DNA from: a virus
IMG/VR virus record: IMGVR_UViG_3300017725_000065
Location: 1-24,824 of that record
Strand: one strand, 5' to 3'
DNA: 24,824 nucleotides
Position 1 is the first letter of the stretch. Each line of letters begins with the position of its first letter. Positions 1,549 through 23,784 of this stretch are shown piece by piece. The notes beneath the pieces are model-generated. The model was not told where the DNA came from and did not search any database. It saw only the letters and a program-made list of their open reading frames with translations. A program made the translations under genes and the position numbers.

Positions 1549-4500
1549 CGTCTACCTTCCTTCTTGAGGCGTTCCACTTGTTGGTATGCTTTTTTGAGAT
1601 CTTCATTCCCTGGCACTTCAATAAGCACCCGAAAACCTTGGTCTATAAATTGTTTGTTTATGTTGCGTAGCAGCGCTAATCTGTCTTTGTCTTTCAAACC
1701 TTTATAAGTTCTGCTTTGCGTAACTGCTGATAACGTCTGACGAAATGTCAGAGTTCCAAAACCACTGCGTCTTACTTTAATTTCGTTTTTAGCCAAGCGA
1801 ATGAGATCTGATTGTGTGCCATAACTTAGTGTAATATTGTTGTATTTTTCTGGGTTTGTTAAAGGCCACTTATTGGTCATGTCATGTAACCGAATAAGTT
1901 CTTTTTCATAGTTTTCTAATGCATCACCGTCTTTAATCCGTATGCCTGTAAGCGCACCAAAAATAGCAGCGCCAGGTTTGTTGGCAAAACTTACATCTTC
2001 CTCGCCTTGCACCTCACCAAATGTGTCATACCGTACAGCGTTATAATCGCGTTCATCTCTGACAAAACTGTCTTTAGCTTGAAATGAATTCATTTTGTCA
2101 AAAAACGCTTTTACGCCCCACCCTTTTTTAGGTGTGCCAACCAGATCATAATTTGGTGACCCATCAGTTTTTGCGTATTTAAAAACCTTGTTGCCATTAA
2201 CAACATCAAATTGCTGAATCTCTTCTAACGTATAATATTCAAAATCTTCTCTTGGGCTTACTGGTGTGGGATCCGCAAGCCGCTGAAACATTCGCTGCAA
2301 AGAAGACAACGGATTAGGCAATCCAACAGGTGTTGCGCTCTCAGCATAAGATCGAGCAAGTTTAGCCGGATCAAAACCATTTAAAAATGATGTTACATCT
2401 GCAATTCCTTGCAACATTGGCGCTTCTTTATAGTACTCACCAATTGCAAGAGCTGCTGCATGTATATAACTTTTTTGCAGCTCCGGATCTCTTGTTTTGT
2501 TTGCACGTTGTACTGTGTCTGCAATAATAGCTAACAAGCCACCTACTGGTTCGTATCCAGAAAAACTTACATATCGTAGTGGGCCATTGGGTCTACCGAA
2601 AACGTCATACAAATCGTCAACACCTTCGGGCCAACCCTCGCCTTTTAAAACAAAGCTGTAAGGTTGCCAGCCAGGTGGTAAGGCTTCGCGCTGTGCATTT
2701 GTTTCTGGCATACCACCAGTTAGCTTGCCATCCATAGCATATTGACCAACTTGCCATGTTGTAGCCGCACCCATTGTAAATCTACCAAAAGCAAGTTGTT
2801 GTTTACGTGGGCCGTTACGACCTAACAAATCGAACGCTGCTTTTGATACTGGCAACGGCACATACTCTAGAGTTCGTAAAAGTGCATTTGTTGGAGCTGT
2901 AACAAACGGAACGATAAAACGTCCTACTAGCGTTCTTTGAAAAGCAGACATAGCCTTTCCAAAAGCGCCTAGATCACTTTGCAAGGTATCAAACTTTGCT
3001 TTTACATCAAGGTCATCAGCAACAGCACGAGGGTCTAGCATCAGCATACCAGCTTCATCCATTGCTTCTTCTTTTGTCATTCCTTGGCGTAGAGAATGTT
3101 GGTATCTTTTATTAAGTGCTGTGTAAAACTCACCACGCTGAGAAATTGTTTTAGTAAATTCATCGCCAGCAAGCAGCAAACGAAAGGGTATACGCATACC
3201 TTTTGACAAAGTATCTAACGATTTACCAAACATCGTGTCACTGTTTTTAAAAGATGGTTGGTATTGATCAATATCTAACTTGCTTGCACCAGCTGGTTGT
3301 TCTGTACGCCAGGCTATTGAAGCAGCTTTCATTGCATCGCCCCAAGCATCACTCCAGCCTTTTACACGGAGCATAGCATCTTCTATGTAAATTTGATCTT
3401 CCGCTATTGGATAGGCCATTCCTAGCTGCTTACGTCCAGCTCTAACGACTTCACCAAACATGCCAGCAAAGATTTCTGTTGGCAGCTGAAACAACATAAA
3501 TGTAGCGTTTGAAAATATGTTTTTAAATTGTGTAGATGGCGCTGATAACAACCCAGCTAAAAATGCCTCATGCACCATTTGTTTTGTTTTTGCGTAGTAT
3601 CCAACTTGCGAAAATTCATTAACACCTTTCATGCCATTTTCTGCACCAACGCGTAACAATCGATCTGCCATTGCTTCTGTTACGTCATCTTGACCGCTTT
3701 CTTTTAATAAACGGTTAGCCTCTGCACTAAACTGATCTGCGTTTAGCTCACCACTTACTTCGATTTTGAAAGACTGAAGCGCTCTTGCAGCTTCTGTTTG
3801 AGCACCTTTAAGCTGCAACTGTATGCCACTGTGAATTGCTAACTGCCTACGAAACTTTAGACGTACATCTGCACCAGCTCCGTTTTTTATTTGTTTTGCA
3901 AGATCTTCTAATTTTACAGCACTTCTTACGAGCAACTCTCTACCAGCAACAAATTCATCTGCTGTAAGTCCACCCTCGCCAATACGCCTAGACAATAGCC
4001 TATCCGTAAAACCGATTTCATCTTGCAATAAATCAAAAGCATCTTGTTTTGTTTTATTGTTTGATATGTACCCTCGTTTGCGAACTTTAGTTTCATCAGC
4101 GTAGACTTCACCAACAGCCGTAATCATGGCTTTTACGTCATCTTCTGTATCAACATAATCAAAATTAAAATCACCACCATCTTGAAGCGATTTTATGTTT
4201 TGTTCTTTTTGTGATGTTCGTAGCAAAATTTCATCTGCTACCGTTTCATCTATAACTCCAGCTTCTGCGCTAAACCCACGCTTGTCAGCTTGTAACGCTT
4301 TCTGTGCTTGCTTATTTATATCGATTGCTAAATCTTCAGCTGATTGCGATTGCTCACTTAGTGCGCTTTGTGCGTCCTTTAAAACATCTGTAGGTGGTTC
4401 TTCGCCAATTCCAAAAGACTGCATGTTACGGTCTTTAAATTTCTCAACACCCTCTGCACTAAGTATTTTTGGTGCGAGCTCTCGCTTTGTCGCTGCTTCA

Positions 4501-18809: not shown

Positions 18810-20084
18810 TTACGCTGCAAACGGATTATAACCGCTGTCAGCATTCCTTTGAGCCGGACGTAAGCTGTCCGTAACAGTCCTAATACCCACCGCCATGTAT
18901 CTTGCACAATCGGCTGCATGCGAACTCCAATCGTGTACAGGGGTGTTCCTAAAACTACGTAAACGCTCATTATAAGCGCGGTGATACTGCCTAAGAGCTT
19001 CCAGCCCAGGTTTGCACAACTCTGCATCAAACCAGCAACGAGGGAGGAGCATTTTCGTAGCATGTATCCCATCCTCTAATGGCAATTTCGGAACAACCCT
19101 AAAGTTAATCCCCAAGTCATAAGCAGCCTCTCGCCTACTCTTCCCAGTGCTTAACTCTCTTACCTCAATGTCATGCGGTGCATGATGCAATGAATATAAA
19201 TATTCTTTCTGCTGGAGAACCTTCGCATAATGCGGCAAGCCCTCTCCCCTATTCTCATAGTAATCAATCACATGAACAGCACGACCAACCTGTTGGACAA
19301 ACCATATAACCGTACTGTCGTTTACTCCCAGATCCCAAAAGGTTTCTACCCTAACACTTGGATCATACGGAACTGAAGTGATGCGACCCATCACATGGAG
19401 CTCCTGTAACTCCTTGCCATAAACAGCACCTGGTACATTCGCTACCCAAGAACACTCATACTCCTGGGCATACTGATCAGGGCTCATCATACTCGATGCA
19501 GCCTCTAATTCCTCATCATCCAGTATTCCGGTCTCACTCGCCTTAAATAAAGCCGTGTGCCAATCCTTCTGCCTCTCAGCAGCCTCATACAACTCATAAA
19601 AAGCATTGTGACCCCTAGGCGTTCCAATAAACAACGCCCATCCCTTACGATCACTTAAAGCTGGCCTAATGATCTCCGGAAATAAACTCTCCGGCATATC
19701 AGCCATCTCATCCAAACACGTACCATCCTGGTATATCCCACGCAGACTATCAGGGTTCTCAGCACCCAACAGCTGTATCCTAGCGCCATTCGGCAAATCA
19801 CACCGCAATTCAGTCTCGTGAAACCTTACCATCGGTATTGCACCAGCAAACTGCTTCAAATAATCCCAAGCAACCGCCTTCGCCTGACGATACGTAGGTG
19901 CAATGTAACTAAACCGTGGATTGGGCTTGTCACAAAGAATAGCAGCCCTCAACAAGTGATTAATCGCCATAACCGTCTTGCCAAACCTACGATGACATAC
20001 AACTACACCCCAGCGCTTCTCAGCTAACGCCTGGTGCAACTGGTTCTGTAATGGCCTTGGTGAATAAGGGATCTCGATGTGCAT
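18810..20084 (-). CDS. terL: Terminase large subunit (ATPase and nuclease), 424 aa
   Basis: This is the packaging motor. The Walker A-like loop is 'CHRRFGKT' at 30-37. Walker B is 'TCLDEMAD' at 122-129, with catalytic E126. The coupling motif is 'IGTPRG' at 153-158. The nuclease domain (about 240-400) shows D251 in 'FWDLGVNDST', the 'HAPHD' segment at 301-305 and D385/D392 in 'VHDWSSHAADCARY'; these are the likely metal-binding acids. The length is slightly short for the family but both domains are complete. No ribosome-binding site precedes the ATG at 20084, which is odd for an essential gene; the 271-nt leader may contribute. The acidic gene follows 10 nt after its stop. Confidence 0.95.
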   Translation of the reverse strand: MHIEIPYSPRPLQNQLHQALAEKRWGVVVCHRRFGKTVMAINHLLRAAILCDKPNPRFSYIAPTYRQAKAVAWDYLKQFAGAIPMVRFHETELRCDLPNGARIQLLGAENPDSLRGIYQDGTCLDEMADMPESLFPEIIRPALSDRKGWALFIGTPRGHNAFYELYEAAERQKDWHTALFKASETGILDDEELEAASSMMSPDQYAQEYECSWVANVPGAVYGKELQELHVMGRITSVPYDPSVRVETFWDLGVNDSTVIWFVQQVGRAVHVIDYYENRGEGLPHYAKVLQQKEYLYSLHHAPHDIEVRELSTGKSRREAAYDLGINFRVVPKLPLEDGIHATKMLLPRCWFDAELCKPGLEALRQYHRAYNERLRSFRNTPVHDWSSHAADCARYMAVGIRTVTDSLRPAQRNADSGYNPFAA

Positions 20085-20355: not shown

Positions 20356-20769
20356 CTATCCAGCTTCAGCACTCACCTCACCACCACTCCAGGTAAGTGT
20401 AATCTGTCCAGCCTGTTGCTTATCTTCTTGCTTGTCACGTAAGCCTAGTGGCTGCATCTGACGTATGTGTTTATCCATGTGATCTGCTTGTAGTCTTCGT
20501 CTCTGTACTTCAGCCATAGCGAGCTTAGGATCATCCGGTAACGCTGCTTCAACTATGTCTAGTATCTGGTCACGCATAACCTCACACTGCAAAGAACGAG
20601 CTGTACGATACTGTGTGTATGCATCTTCGTTCTCTTGAACATAACGCAAGATAGTACGCCATGAAGGTAGATGATCGTTCTCGTTGCAAATACGAGTAAG
20701 GCTTACACCTTCTGCTATTGCTTCGCAGATCTCTTCAAGCTGTGCTTTTGTTACATTACGTTTTGGCAT
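20356..20769 (-). CDS. terS: Terminase small subunit, 137 aa
   Basis: The HTH region 'EGVSLTRICNENDHLPSWRT' at 20-39 followed by 'ILRYVQENEDAYTQYRTAR' is the DNA-binding fold of Sf6-type small terminases, a family I recognise by its 'SL..IC......PS..T' pattern. A helical oligomerisation segment (about 58-105, REVMRDQI-like) follows. The C-terminus (ITLTWSGGEVSAEAG) is short and may contact the large subunit. It directly precedes the large terminase gene with a 271-nt gap. The ribosome-binding site is weak (AAGAAAAG). Confidence 0.88.
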   Translation of the reverse strand: MPKRNVTKAQLEEICEAIAEGVSLTRICNENDHLPSWRTILRYVQENEDAYTQYRTARSLQCEVMRDQILDIVEAALPDDPKLAMAEVQRRRLQADHMDKHIRQMQPLGLRDKQEDKQQAGQITLTWSGGEVSAEAG

Positions 20770-21126
20770 GTTCTTTTCTTAGAAAAAGACCTGACTAGAT
20801 TGGTTTCAGTTTGAGACAGCATAAGCGCCAGTAATAAGTATCTAGCCAGGTAAGTTAATGAAATAAAATGTTGTTAAAAAAAAACCCTCATAAATTAATA
20901 CAAGGGTTTCTCTGTATCTAGCTACGCCCAGAAGCGACCAAACCTCTGAATTCGTATGTCGTGCTGACAGCTCAAGATCCGTTTCTTTGCGACAAGATAT
21001 GGAGGAGCTGCCAGACTTTGACATTGATTAAACAATATCTGTCCAATCATATCATACTCCATACTACATTTCGTGCATTCATACAAGCAATAGTTTTTTT
21101 TCAGTCAAGCGACATGACATATATCG
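20770..21126 (-). other. Gene-free leader between early and late genes
   Basis: This 357-nt stretch carries no supported gene. It contains the intrinsic terminator at 20874-20909. A TTGACT box lies at 21103-21108 on the minus strand, followed after 17 nt by TGTATG, with overlapping TATGAT boxes at about 21045-21058. These could form a late promoter. Downstream of the terminator, GTATCTAGC is repeated at about 20838 and 20915. An RNA of about 150-200 nt ending at the terminator is possible if the promoter is real. Confidence 0.4.
20874..20909 (-). terminator. Intrinsic terminator upstream of the terminase genes
   Basis: The minus-strand RNA reads AAACCCU, a 14-base A/U-rich loop and AGGGUUU, followed by six more U. 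The stem (seven pairs) is modest and the loop large, but the U run is excellent. It lies 105 nt before the small terminase start, so late transcription from upstream must pass it. Confidence 0.65.
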
Positions 21127-21555
21127 TCAAAAGTACTCAGCAAGTATCTCATCGTCTTGGTATTTAAGTCTAGCCCAGAGCCTCACTAATGCATCTGTGT
21201 ATCTACGTTTGATCTGTCTACCATCTCGTAGTCCATTCATTCTTGCAAGCTTCTGCCATTGCGCGCCTCTTTCACGGAAGGCAGCGCTATGGCTTACAGC
21301 CCATACCATCTTGCGATCATCTGCATCCATGTGCTCGATACCCAGGTATAGCGCATTTGTATACTTATCTACTTGCTTGGGAGATGGAACCGGATGTTTA
21401 GGTTTGAATTCAGAGTAACCATATGCTGACCACTGTTGCTGATACTCAGGCCATGATCCTAGCTTCTGCTTTCGTATTGCTGGGGGAAGTGCTCGCTCTG
21501 TTTCTGCTGCCTCGAAAAATAGTTCACTGAGCTGTGCTACATCAGGGTTATCCAC
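21127..21555 (-). CDS. DUF6362-like phage protein, possible late regulator, 142 aa
   Basis: The sequence 'SELFFEAAETERALPPAIRK' near the N-terminus, 'QKLGSWPEYQQQW' and a C-terminal 'RGAQWQKLARMNGLRDGRQI' with 'KRRYTDALVRLW' match what I remember of DUF6362 proteins in phages and prophages. The last 45 residues look like a helix-turn-helix. I choose the GTG at 21555 because GGAG at 21564-21567 lies 8 nt upstream. The longer reading from the ATG at 21600 has no ribosome-binding site and begins with a poly-Phe stretch. It is the last early gene and faces the late-gene leader, so a Q- or RinA-like role in late transcription is attractive but unproven. Confidence 0.7.
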   Translation of the reverse strand: MDNPDVAQLSELFFEAAETERALPPAIRKQKLGSWPEYQQQWSAYGYSEFKPKHPVPSPKQVDKYTNALYLGIEHMDADDRKMVWAVSHSAAFRERGAQWQKLARMNGLRDGRQIKRRYTDALVRLWARLKYQDDEILAEYF

Positions 21556-21935: not shown

Positions 21936-22146
21936 CTATCTTCCCCTTCGCTACGTCCTCTGCGTGTCTAATAACCCAGCTCAATTTCAATAATTCTTCA
22001 CCCATTTCTTCAGTCACAATGCCGCTAAACAATACCTTCGTATGCTTGTTCTCTACAGCCTCTGATGGCCTCACTGCCCAGGTAGCTAGACCGTCCTTCA
22101 CACTGACCGTGAACAACATATGTCCTACCTTGAGCTGCCTATTCAT
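21928..22146 (-). CDS. Small protein of 72 aa, unknown
   Basis: The ATG at 22146 overlaps the stop of the PP-loop gene by four bases (ATGA), with GGGGAG eight bases upstream; the GTG at 22155 is less likely. The protein starts MNRQLKVGHMLFTVSVKDGL, then 'ATWAVRPSEAVEN', and ends in a charged helix (EEMGEELLKLSWVIRHAEDV). I recognise no family. Its coupling to the PAPS-reductase-like gene suggests joint expression, not necessarily joint function. Confidence 0.65.
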   Translation of the reverse strand: MNRQLKVGHMLFTVSVKDGLATWAVRPSEAVENKHTKVLFSGIVTEEMGEELLKLSWVIRHAEDVAKGKIDE

Positions 22147-22985
22147 CCGGTACACTCCCCACCATCAGCCTGGCAAAAGAACCCTTCAATATCGAACACC
22201 CAATCGCCTTGACGATCTAAGTTGTTTTTAATTTCTTGATAGGCTACGCCATCGTAGCGAAAAGTATGTCCAAACTCTTTTTCTAACCTCGACCACCACT
22301 GCATACGATCTGGATAATCTCGCCACATCTCTGCTAATTTTAACTCGCTTTTTAAAAAACAACCGTCACAATTTGAATGTGGTGTCACACCATTGATAAG
22401 TGGTAATTTTAAATCGAAAGCTAAATTTTGTTTTGTCCAGAATTCAGCAACATCATACTTTGTTTCGCCAGCGTTATATATTGGAAACCAATTTAACCAG
22501 CGTTTATCTTTACTGTCTTTAACTCTGCGTCCTTCATCAGCTCTTATGCCAACAGTGTTATACCACGACTTCCATTTAATACTTACTAAAAATCTTTTAA
22601 TTGTTTTTACTTTTAATTCTTCCGTACACTTTCTTCTCATAGTGTTTGGAATATATTTGTTAGCTCTTATTAAAGCTTCTAACGGTTCACCATCACGACT
22701 AGCAGAGTTGTGGCTAACGGTTACAAACTTAGGCATTTGCTTTCTGTATTCTAACCATGTGATAGGCACACGCCAACGCTCGCTACACTCTTGTACAAAG
22801 TCTAATGTTTCTGGCATCTCACGCCCAGTATTTGCGAAAGTAACAACACAATCACTAGGTAATCCATTGTATGCTTCTAAAATATTATGAAGCATAAACG
22901 CACTTGTTCTACCGCCCGAAAAACTTATTTGTGTACGCCCCTCTGGTAACTCATATGCATACATACTATTCATTAGCGCCATCAT
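22143..22985 (-). CDS. PAPS-reductase-like PP-loop protein, 280 aa
   Basis: This is a member of the adenosine-phosphosulfate reductase/ATP-pyrophosphatase superfamily. The PP-loop is 'SGGRTS' at 23-28, preceded by a beta strand (QISF). 'FANTGREMPETLDFVQECSE' at 50-69 and 'GIRADEGRR' at 146-154 are further conserved family segments. Cysteines at 120, 206 and 209 (NCDGC) could hold a metal or iron-sulfur cluster. The ECG(L/I)H end of true CysH reductases is missing, so sulfur assimilation is not assured; nucleic-acid thiolation or phosphorothioation (DndC-type chemistry) is an alternative, but no other dnd gene is visible. The start is uncertain: ATGs at 22985, 22982, 22973 and 22964 all lack a clear ribosome-binding site. 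Confidence 0.85.
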   Translation of the reverse strand: MMALMNSMYAYELPEGRTQISFSGGRTSAFMLHNILEAYNGLPSDCVVTFANTGREMPETLDFVQECSERWRVPITWLEYRKQMPKFVTVSHNSASRDGEPLEALIRANKYIPNTMRRKCTEELKVKTIKRFLVSIKWKSWYNTVGIRADEGRRVKDSKDKRWLNWFPIYNAGETKYDVAEFWTKQNLAFDLKLPLINGVTPHSNCDGCFLKSELKLAEMWRDYPDRMQWWSRLEKEFGHTFRYDGVAYQEIKNNLDRQGDWVFDIEGFFCQADGGECTG

Positions 22986-23166
22986 TCAGTACCGCGTCTT
23001 CAAGCATGTTGATCTTGCCACTACCGCCACAAATCTCGCACTCAACCATCTGCACATACTCACCGTTGTTGTGCTCGCCAGGCCAATGCACGTAGTAGGT
23101 CATTTCTCTCTCTCCGTACCCTCTGCAACGTGAACAGCGAACCATGATCACATCGTCCTGGGTCAT
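22966..23166 (-). CDS. Small zinc-binding protein with two DnaJ-type CXXCXGXG motifs, 66 aa
   Basis: 'CSRCRGYG' at 11-18 and 'CEICGGSG' at 43-50 are two of the four repeats of the DnaJ central domain, enough for one zinc site. There is no J domain or substrate-binding domain, so it is not a co-chaperone. Similar mini-proteins occur in phages. The ATG at 23166 shares its first base with the stop of the VRR-NUC gene (TGATG), supporting this start over the upstream ATG at 23238. It overlaps the PP-loop gene by up to 20 nt. The function may be nucleic-acid or protein binding; only the motif is certain. Confidence 0.8.
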   Translation of the reverse strand: MTQDDVIMVRCSRCRGYGEREMTYYVHWPGEHNNGEYVQMVECEICGGSGKINMLEDAVLNDGANE

Positions 23167-23549
23167 CACTTCACCTTTAGTTTGACGAGTGGCGTCAAGA
23201 ACTCTGTTACGTCCTCGATGCTCTTGCACAGCGCCCACGCAAAACCAGCCTCAATTATCTGATCTCGCATACGACGTTGGTTCTCGTTCATCACACCACG
23301 TTTAGCTTTGAGCTCTATGAAGATCGCTTCGTTGTTGCCGGACTTGGTTGCAGTAGAAGGGCAAAACAATTCAAGGTCAGGCCAGCCATACTTTGTACCC
23401 ATCTGCTTGAGCCTGTTAATGTAGTTTATATGCCGCTTACCTTCATTAGGACTATGGTGAAATACACAACCCTCAGGCAGCGCTACATCAAGCCAGGATG
23501 ATACCTGACGCTGTAGATCGTCCTCAGTACCGCTGAATGTAGAAGTCAT
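23166..23549 (-). CDS. VRR-NUC domain nuclease, 127 aa
   Basis: This stand-alone VRR-NUC protein belongs to the PD-(D/E)XK nuclease superfamily. E9 in 'SGTEDDLQRQ', 'HHSPNEGKR' at 31-39, the G-x-P-D motif 'KYGWPDLEL' (D58) and 'IFIELKAKRG' (E79, K81) followed by Q91 form the expected active site in order. The length of about 120 residues is normal for phage copies, which act on DNA junctions or flaps in replication and recombination. It overlaps the Cro-like gene by 26 nt, with a weak ribosome-binding site (AGG nine bases before the ATG), and is coupled to the zinc-protein gene. Confidence 0.9.
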   Translation of the reverse strand: MTSTFSGTEDDLQRQVSSWLDVALPEGCVFHHSPNEGKRHINYINRLKQMGTKYGWPDLELFCPSTATKSGNNEAIFIELKAKRGVMNENQRRMRDQIIEAGFAWALCKSIEDVTEFLTPLVKLKVK

Positions 23550-23759: not shown

Positions 23760-23784
23760 TAAAAAGCTTGACTTGGATTTGCAA
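23756..23784 (-). promoter_or_regulatory. Early operon promoter TTGCAA-N17-TACAAT
   Basis: On the minus strand a -35 box TTGCAA (23779-23784) is separated by exactly 17 nt from TACAAT (23756-23761), about 20 nt before the Cro-like start codon. It should drive the operon from the Cro-like gene onward. A plus-strand TTGACT (23768-23773) with TAATTG 17 nt on is a weaker candidate for the repressor. Confidence 0.65.

Follow-up and report, generated by a model that had tools for sequence, protein, structure and literature searches.

The phage antiterminator Q depends on two sequence elements. One is a binding element that lies between -35 and -10, and the other, a -10-like sequence within the initially transcribed region, causes a sigma-dependent pause (PMC6606751). 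In the structure of 21Q, H3-H6 fold like sigma region 4 (PMC6606751). AlpA, from Pseudomonas aeruginosa, relies on similar cis elements: its binding element lies between -10 and -35, a -10-like sequence spans -1 to +5, and it acts on an intrinsic terminator further downstream (PMC9371919). GafZ, the antiterminator of the Caulobacter gene transfer agent, is a protein with a sigma-like HTH, and its element also lies between -10 and -35 (PMC11150451).

Here we describe a locus with a similar layout, next to a gene from the uncharacterized family DUF6362. The window that we analyzed is the complete IMG/VR record IMGVR_UViG_3300017725_000065 (24,824 bases), which is a piece of a marine temperate lambda-like phage genome. 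Its terL shares 57% identity with the terL of the Pelagibacter phage HTVC010P group. As judged from the anatomy of the locus, DUF6362 probably acts as a Q-type antiterminator of phage late genes. The features of the leader and its flanking genes are listed in Table 1.

Table 1. Leader elements and flanking genes in the window, from the regulator to the late genes.
Feature	Position	Strand	Remarks
DUF6362 gene, proposed Q-type antiterminator	21127..21555	-	142 aa, PF19889
-35 element TTGTAT	21081..21086	-	TTG 17/18 nt from the -10 in 32/32 leaders
Conserved spacer GAATGCACGAAATGTAG, proposed QBE-like binding element	21064..21080	-	EM motif, 14.5 bits
-10 element TATGGA	21058..21063	-	TA in 31/32 leaders
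-10-like element TATGAT, at about +1	21046..21051	-	TANNNT in 29/32 leaders
Conserved leader hairpin	20961..21016	-	CTGGCAGCT/AGCTGTCAG stem, TTGTCGC loop
Lineage-specific extra intrinsic terminator	20876..20909	-	Restricted to the window and the near-identical contigs L002/L003
Conserved leader terminator	20781..20851	-	12-bp stem, long loop, then CTTTTTCT; invariant in 15 aligned close leaders
terS, first late gene	20356..20769	-	Pfam Sf6_terminase, E = 5e-23
terL	18810..20084	-	Terminase_6N, E = 1.5e-11

Most of the layout is as an earlier note on this DNA described it. DUF6362 is the last early gene, and it matches PF19889 and encodes a protein whose C-terminal half is HTH-like. The leader (20770-21126) is exactly 357 nt long and gene-free, as the reading frames inside it are not preserved in the relatives. 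And terS, terL, and the large genes that follow are all on the minus strand, which fits the co-directional late operon that the note had reported. The note also placed a minus-strand intrinsic terminator in the leader. There is one, but the terminator that was probably meant (20909-20876) is confined to this lineage, and the conserved one is at 20851-20781. Finally, the note's likening of this layout to lambda Q and its pR' leader is borne out by anatomy and conservation, that is, as a statement about anatomy and not about biochemistry. (We also considered that the leader might hide a small gene for a zinc ribbon: CxxC-like peptides are encoded in two frames, but these frames break across the relatives, and what is conserved is the DNA block.)

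Two longer relatives (34 and 35.8 kb) have a cI-like gene that is divergent from a cro-like gene, and we recognized an integrase-like protein by eye in both of them. These two phages look temperate. Given the integrase-like protein and the divergent cI- and cro-like genes, the overall order resembles that of lambda, with cro first, then the early genes, the regulator, the leader, and the late genes. As with lambda Q, pR', and tR', the regulator gene is followed by a promoter and leader, then by a terminator and the late genes, and the setting is likewise a temperate phage in which cI- and cro-like genes are divergent. In contrast to lambda, the protein is unrelated to Q by sequence, and DUF6362 seems to have its own promoter too. 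Half-sites CAATTCTTG/CAAGAATTG are repeated around the cI-like gene, beside TTGAC sequences (near 23763, 24552, and 24610 in the window), and these are likely repressor operators. The early operon also includes an auxiliary gene for a PAPS-reductase-like protein (22143-22985, minus strand), which we found in just 7 of 37 related terS loci.

The DUF6362 gene starts at a GTG codon (21555) with a GGAG Shine-Dalgarno sequence; a longer ATG frame reaches 21600. The window protein matches the Pfam model for DUF6362 (PF19889) with E = 1e-10 and 42.3 bits, which is above the curated cut-off of 31. Upstream of the gene is a strong promoter-like site (TTGACT-18-TATAAT; 21748-21719, minus strand). In close relatives, a similar site (TTGAC-18-TATAAT or TAAAAT) stands at almost the same position, and the spacer is always 18 nt. 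DUF6362 may thus have a promoter of its own. Palindromic TGTGT-NN-ACACA operators upstream of DUF6362 were no more frequent than expected by chance. A search of 50,697 cultured phage records returned zero homologs of DUF6362, and a literature search found no paper that names the family. When we compared a profile of 31 DUF6362 proteins to all PDB sequences (up to E = 5), no Q protein was returned. DUF6362 is also not GafZ: the C-terminal domain of GafZ and GafA is DUF6456 (PF20057), and the profile-profile comparison to DUF6362 with hhalign gave a probability of 0.6% (E = 0.099). GafZ does resemble our proposal in being a protein with a sigma-like HTH whose element lies between -10 and -35. 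Its element is palindromic, and it carries out antitermination of a phage-like gene cluster (the gene transfer agents of alphaproteobacteria), but it works with GafY and IHF.

We then examined the gene neighborhood of DUF6362, which the earlier note had put forward as a check, in a sample of viral contigs with 80 DUF6362 loci and 80 terS loci. Nearly all of the viral relatives have DUF6362 right ahead of terS, on the same strand and with a conserved leader between them, which places the candidate regulator gene immediately upstream of the late operon. Specifically, terS is downstream of DUF6362 on the same strand at 145 loci read in this orientation, and the apparent exceptions have an identical arrangement, seen from the opposite strand. 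DUF6362 is on the same strand in all 37 terS loci with at least 2.6 kb of upstream sequence. Other early genes are less constant at those loci (Zn-finger, 5/37; cro, 13/37; VRR nuclease, 23/37). At some loci, 1.5-2.3 kb is inserted between DUF6362 and terS, and the promoter block and the terminator stay beside terS. L013 and L037 have extra DNA between DUF6362 and the leader promoter (230-270 nt after DUF6362); there, too, the promoter stays with terS. In a single case, L198, terL is 71% identical and terS is homologous, and both DUF6362 and the promoter motif are missing. This phage-like contig has a different protein of 112 amino acids at the place of DUF6362 (2813-3151), which is possibly an alternative late regulator.

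DUF6362 is also found in the chromosomes of alphaproteobacteria: PF19889 was above the cut-off in 57 of 385 sampled genomes. Homologs scattered away from late operons would have spoken against the note's proposal. Instead, 14 of 20 host copies are upstream of a terminase and about 6 are isolated. More precisely, in 14 of the 20 loci (7-13 kb examined for each), a terminase large subunit is downstream on the same strand, and these terminases are of three unrelated types (GpA, 8; Terminase_6N, 5; TerL_ATPase, 1). We rejected DUF6362 as a partner of terS, since it precedes terminases of three unrelated types. The remaining six loci have a chromosomal appearance, with isolated genes. In these (L303, L307, L308, L310, L311, and L313), DUF6362 is beside ordinary-looking genes such as thrS, an ammonium transporter, or a response regulator; they are possibly domesticated or degraded prophage remnants.

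One unrelated prophage (L271) has the exact cassette: TTGACC-18-TATTAT-5-TATAGT overlaps the stop codon of DUF6362, followed by a hairpin (GGGCGCC...GGCGCCC, TTTTCTTTTT) with a T run, a terS-like gene, and terL. However, the strict promoter pattern was found in just 1 of 32 alphaproteobacterial chromosomal loci (0.25 expected) and in none of the GpA-type prophages, so only in the marine group do we regard the cassette as established. At L255-L266, there is a conserved GGGTCCTTCCTGGC block 130-220 nt after DUF6362, and then GC-rich repeats before the GpA-type terminase genes, resembling a cos-like region.

The most informative part of the locus is the promoter in the leader, which went unseen in the earlier note. 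We searched for motifs by EM in 28 leaders that are less than about 80% alike, and counted the elements in 32 distinct leaders. The log-likelihood ratio of the motif was 358, versus 98-111 in six shuffled sets. The -35 element is TTG in all 32 leaders and TTGAC in 19 of them, and the spacer is 17 or 18 nt, with the consensus gAATGcaCtAAATgTaG (14.5 bits over 17 columns). Because the motif was selected for both TTG and TA, these two counts (32/32 and 31/32) are partly circular. The TANNNT is outside the motif core, and its count is not circular. It begins 12 nt after the start of the -10 in 26 leaders and 11 nt after it in another 3 (in shuffles, the mean was 2.4 leaders and the maximum was 8), and this -10-like sequence is at -1/+1. 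All three features are present together in 28 of 32 leaders, versus at most 1 leader in the shuffles; the relatives share ancestry, so none of these promoter counts are independent. The complete set is missing from L074, L078, L080, L076, and L081.

These promoter elements are the most widely conserved part of the leader, and the block occurs once per genome. It does not seem to be a common motif: the genuine matches in viral contigs are all beside DUF6362, and matches in L109, L111, and L112 are due to chance and lie inside unrelated genes. Nor does it seem to be a promoter for a phage RNA polymerase, given that it occurs once per genome and that we recognized no RNA polymerase by eye in the protein lists of the two ~35-kb relatives. 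(A third -10-like element, 12-16 nt further downstream, is present in 15 of 29 leaders versus 2.0 in shuffles. It was defined post hoc and we left it out of the model.) We propose that the TATGAT at about +1 is a sigma-dependent pause element or, alternatively, the real -10. Overall, the sequence features of the cis elements that were named for Q and AlpA (PMC6606751, PMC9371919) are all present with the expected spacing, with binding and pausing as predictions. As in AlpA's case, a putative binding element lies between -10 and -35, a -10-like sequence is near the start, and an intrinsic terminator is downstream; AlpA differs in that its targets are lysis genes of the host and in that the protein has two additional helices.

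We also examined the terminators. The conserved terminator in the window comprises ACCTGGCTAG...CTAGTCAGGT and CTTTTTCT, and its stem ends 19 nt before the ATG of terS. The lineage-specific one comprises AAACCCTTGTA-TTAATT-TATGAGGGTTT and a T run. A simple terminator scan of the window picked up neither of them. In most groups, a hairpin with a T-rich tract ends 11-22 nt ahead of the start codon of terS. The stems are unrelated between groups, but their position is kept (ACCTGGCTAG in the window, GCCCCGTAG in L025, GCCGCCCTG in L043, GCCTAGCAGC in L050, GCCCAGCTA in L162, and GCAGGCTCA in L165). A hairpin and T tract with an energy of -15 kcal/mol or below was found before terS in 14 of 28 cases, before DUF6362 in 5 of 27, and before terL in 1 of 23, and in 14 of 142 windows from the early region (under a single scoring rule). 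The median before terS was -17, versus -5 in shuffles. The signal has p = 5e-5 against dinucleotide shuffles and p = 8e-4 against the reverse strand, but these values are optimistic because the relatives share ancestry. L035, L037, and L041 have a hairpin before terS that lacks a T tract, and L074, L078, and L080 have no clear terminator there. So, most groups, but not L035 or L041, have an intrinsic terminator between the promoter and the first late gene.

The earlier note had also suggested structure prediction. We built AlphaFold2 models of two proteins, the one from the window (pLDDT 73.5) and a shorter relative for which the alignment was deeper (pLDDT 81.6). Both models have an N-terminal helix and a C-terminal HTH that resembles sigma region 4; the DNA-binding half of DUF6362 is predicted to have the sigma-region-4 fold, which is also present in 21Q. 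For the window protein, 21Q ranks 1, 2, and 5 (6p1c and 6p1a have Z = 7.1 over 116-118 residues), and sigma factors are also among the top matches. For the shorter relative, sigma factors reach Z = 7.7 over 70 residues, and 21Q matches across the whole chain (Z = 7.2, 7.0, and 6.8 over 93-107 residues, including 6p1a_C at 7.2 and 6jnx_P at 6.8 over 107 residues). Thus, 21Q is the best full-length match to the models, but with a score that is within the noise, as unrelated helical proteins can also reach Z of about 7. Foldseek searches with the DUF6362 models gave zero significant matches. With nothing significant from Foldseek and Z within the noise, the structural match lends support to the Q-type reading but is no proof of it.

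Taken together, the resemblance to 21Q includes a regulator before the late operon, a candidate binding site that lies between -35 and -10, an initial transcript with a -10-like sequence, a downstream terminator, and, in the predicted models, a sigma-R4-like HTH preceded by an N-terminal helix. On the other side, we found no sequence similarity between 21Q and DUF6362, the structural Z of about 7 is not decisive, and the direct-repeat QBE of 21Q (TGAGCA) is not seen in DUF6362 leaders.

If DUF6362 is an antiterminator, then it might work as follows. The leader promoter would fire a short transcript that normally ends at the hairpin just before terS. DUF6362, made from the early region, would bind the conserved spacer that separates -35 from -10, at a time when retained sigma keeps RNA polymerase paused at the -10-like element near +1. 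DUF6362 would then join the polymerase and allow it to pass the leader terminator and terminators beyond, and the whole late operon would be transcribed. In most leaders, the 11-22 nt between the terminator and terS are too little for another promoter. With so little DNA between them, a late transcript from the leader must read through the hairpin, and this is our main argument for antitermination over plain activation.

The chief alternative is that DUF6362 activates late transcription in the ordinary way, as RinA and ArpU do in Gram-positive phages. It would act on the block overlapping the -35, the second TANNNT would be the true -10, sigma70 would be recruited, and the hairpin before terS would merely attenuate transcription or stabilize the mRNA. 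This differs from Q-type antitermination in where transcription starts, with +1 near 21051 under the Q-type reading and about 12 nt later under this one, and in whether the terminator is relevant. The second TANNNT is indeed the better -10 (its last position is T in 29/32 leaders, versus 13/32 for the first one); the block would then span about -47 to -23, the usual position for an activator; and a sigma-R4-like HTH fits equally well. But a strong hairpin and T tract between the promoter and terS, as most groups have, would block a promoter that had only an activator. Activation would also leave TTG(AC)-17/18-TA, a normal sigma70 layout, unexplained, and the Pfam matches of the window protein (up to E = 0.1) include no RinA/ArpU-type or other known activator family. 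We consider this alternative to be unlikely. Another factor from the phage might instead work the leader, with DUF6362 merely adjacent. The small DnaJ-like zinc-finger protein (CxxCxGxG; 22966-23238, minus strand) has weak PHROG matches to "anti-termination protein Q-like" (E = 0.005 and 0.009). However, its gene is not conserved with the leader (5/37 terS loci versus 37/37 for DUF6362), and such a factor would not account for DUF6362 being ahead of three unrelated types of terminases in host genomes, so this idea seems highly improbable.

The leader could also be a self-acting RNA element (like put from HK022) or a packaging site (pac or cos) for the adjoining terminase, with a different job for DUF6362. 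The location beside terS would fit, and the leader of the window folds better than all 200 of its shuffles (z = -5.3). The conserved hairpin with the TTGTCGC loop has two-sided U-A to C-G changes in L020-L022, and L035, L041, and L024 have group-specific stems, with compensatory changes and TTGTCGC or TTGACGC in the loop. Yet this hairpin is absent from short leaders, in which 66-110 nt separate the promoter and the ATG and which keep both promoter and terminator, and it is the promoter elements that are most widely conserved, which makes a self-acting or packaging role very unlikely. (We discarded the hairpin that comes first after the promoter as an RNA element, because its 5' arm overlaps the TANNNT region and may be outside of the transcript if the second TANNNT is the -10.) The long leader RNA could also be part of the mechanism in the lineage of the window: the hairpin with the invariant TTGTCGC loop, transcribed between promoter and terminator, would be bound by, or cooperate with, DUF6362 and the polymerase, but we find this doubtful. 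If it were true, then the system would combine antitermination by a protein (Q) with antitermination by an RNA (HK022 put).

If Q-type antitermination is the correct reading, then the master switch for late genes would be the function of a so far uncharacterized domain, which is common among uncultured marine phages and alphaproteobacterial prophages. DUF6362 would be an additional family that has no sequence similarity to Q or GafZ and uses the same promoter layout. This would suggest that evolution has repeatedly arrived at the promoter layout and not at one particular protein. The signature (a -35, a conserved spacer, a -10, a -10-like sequence at +1, and a terminator) could then be used to find the late promoters of uncultured phages.
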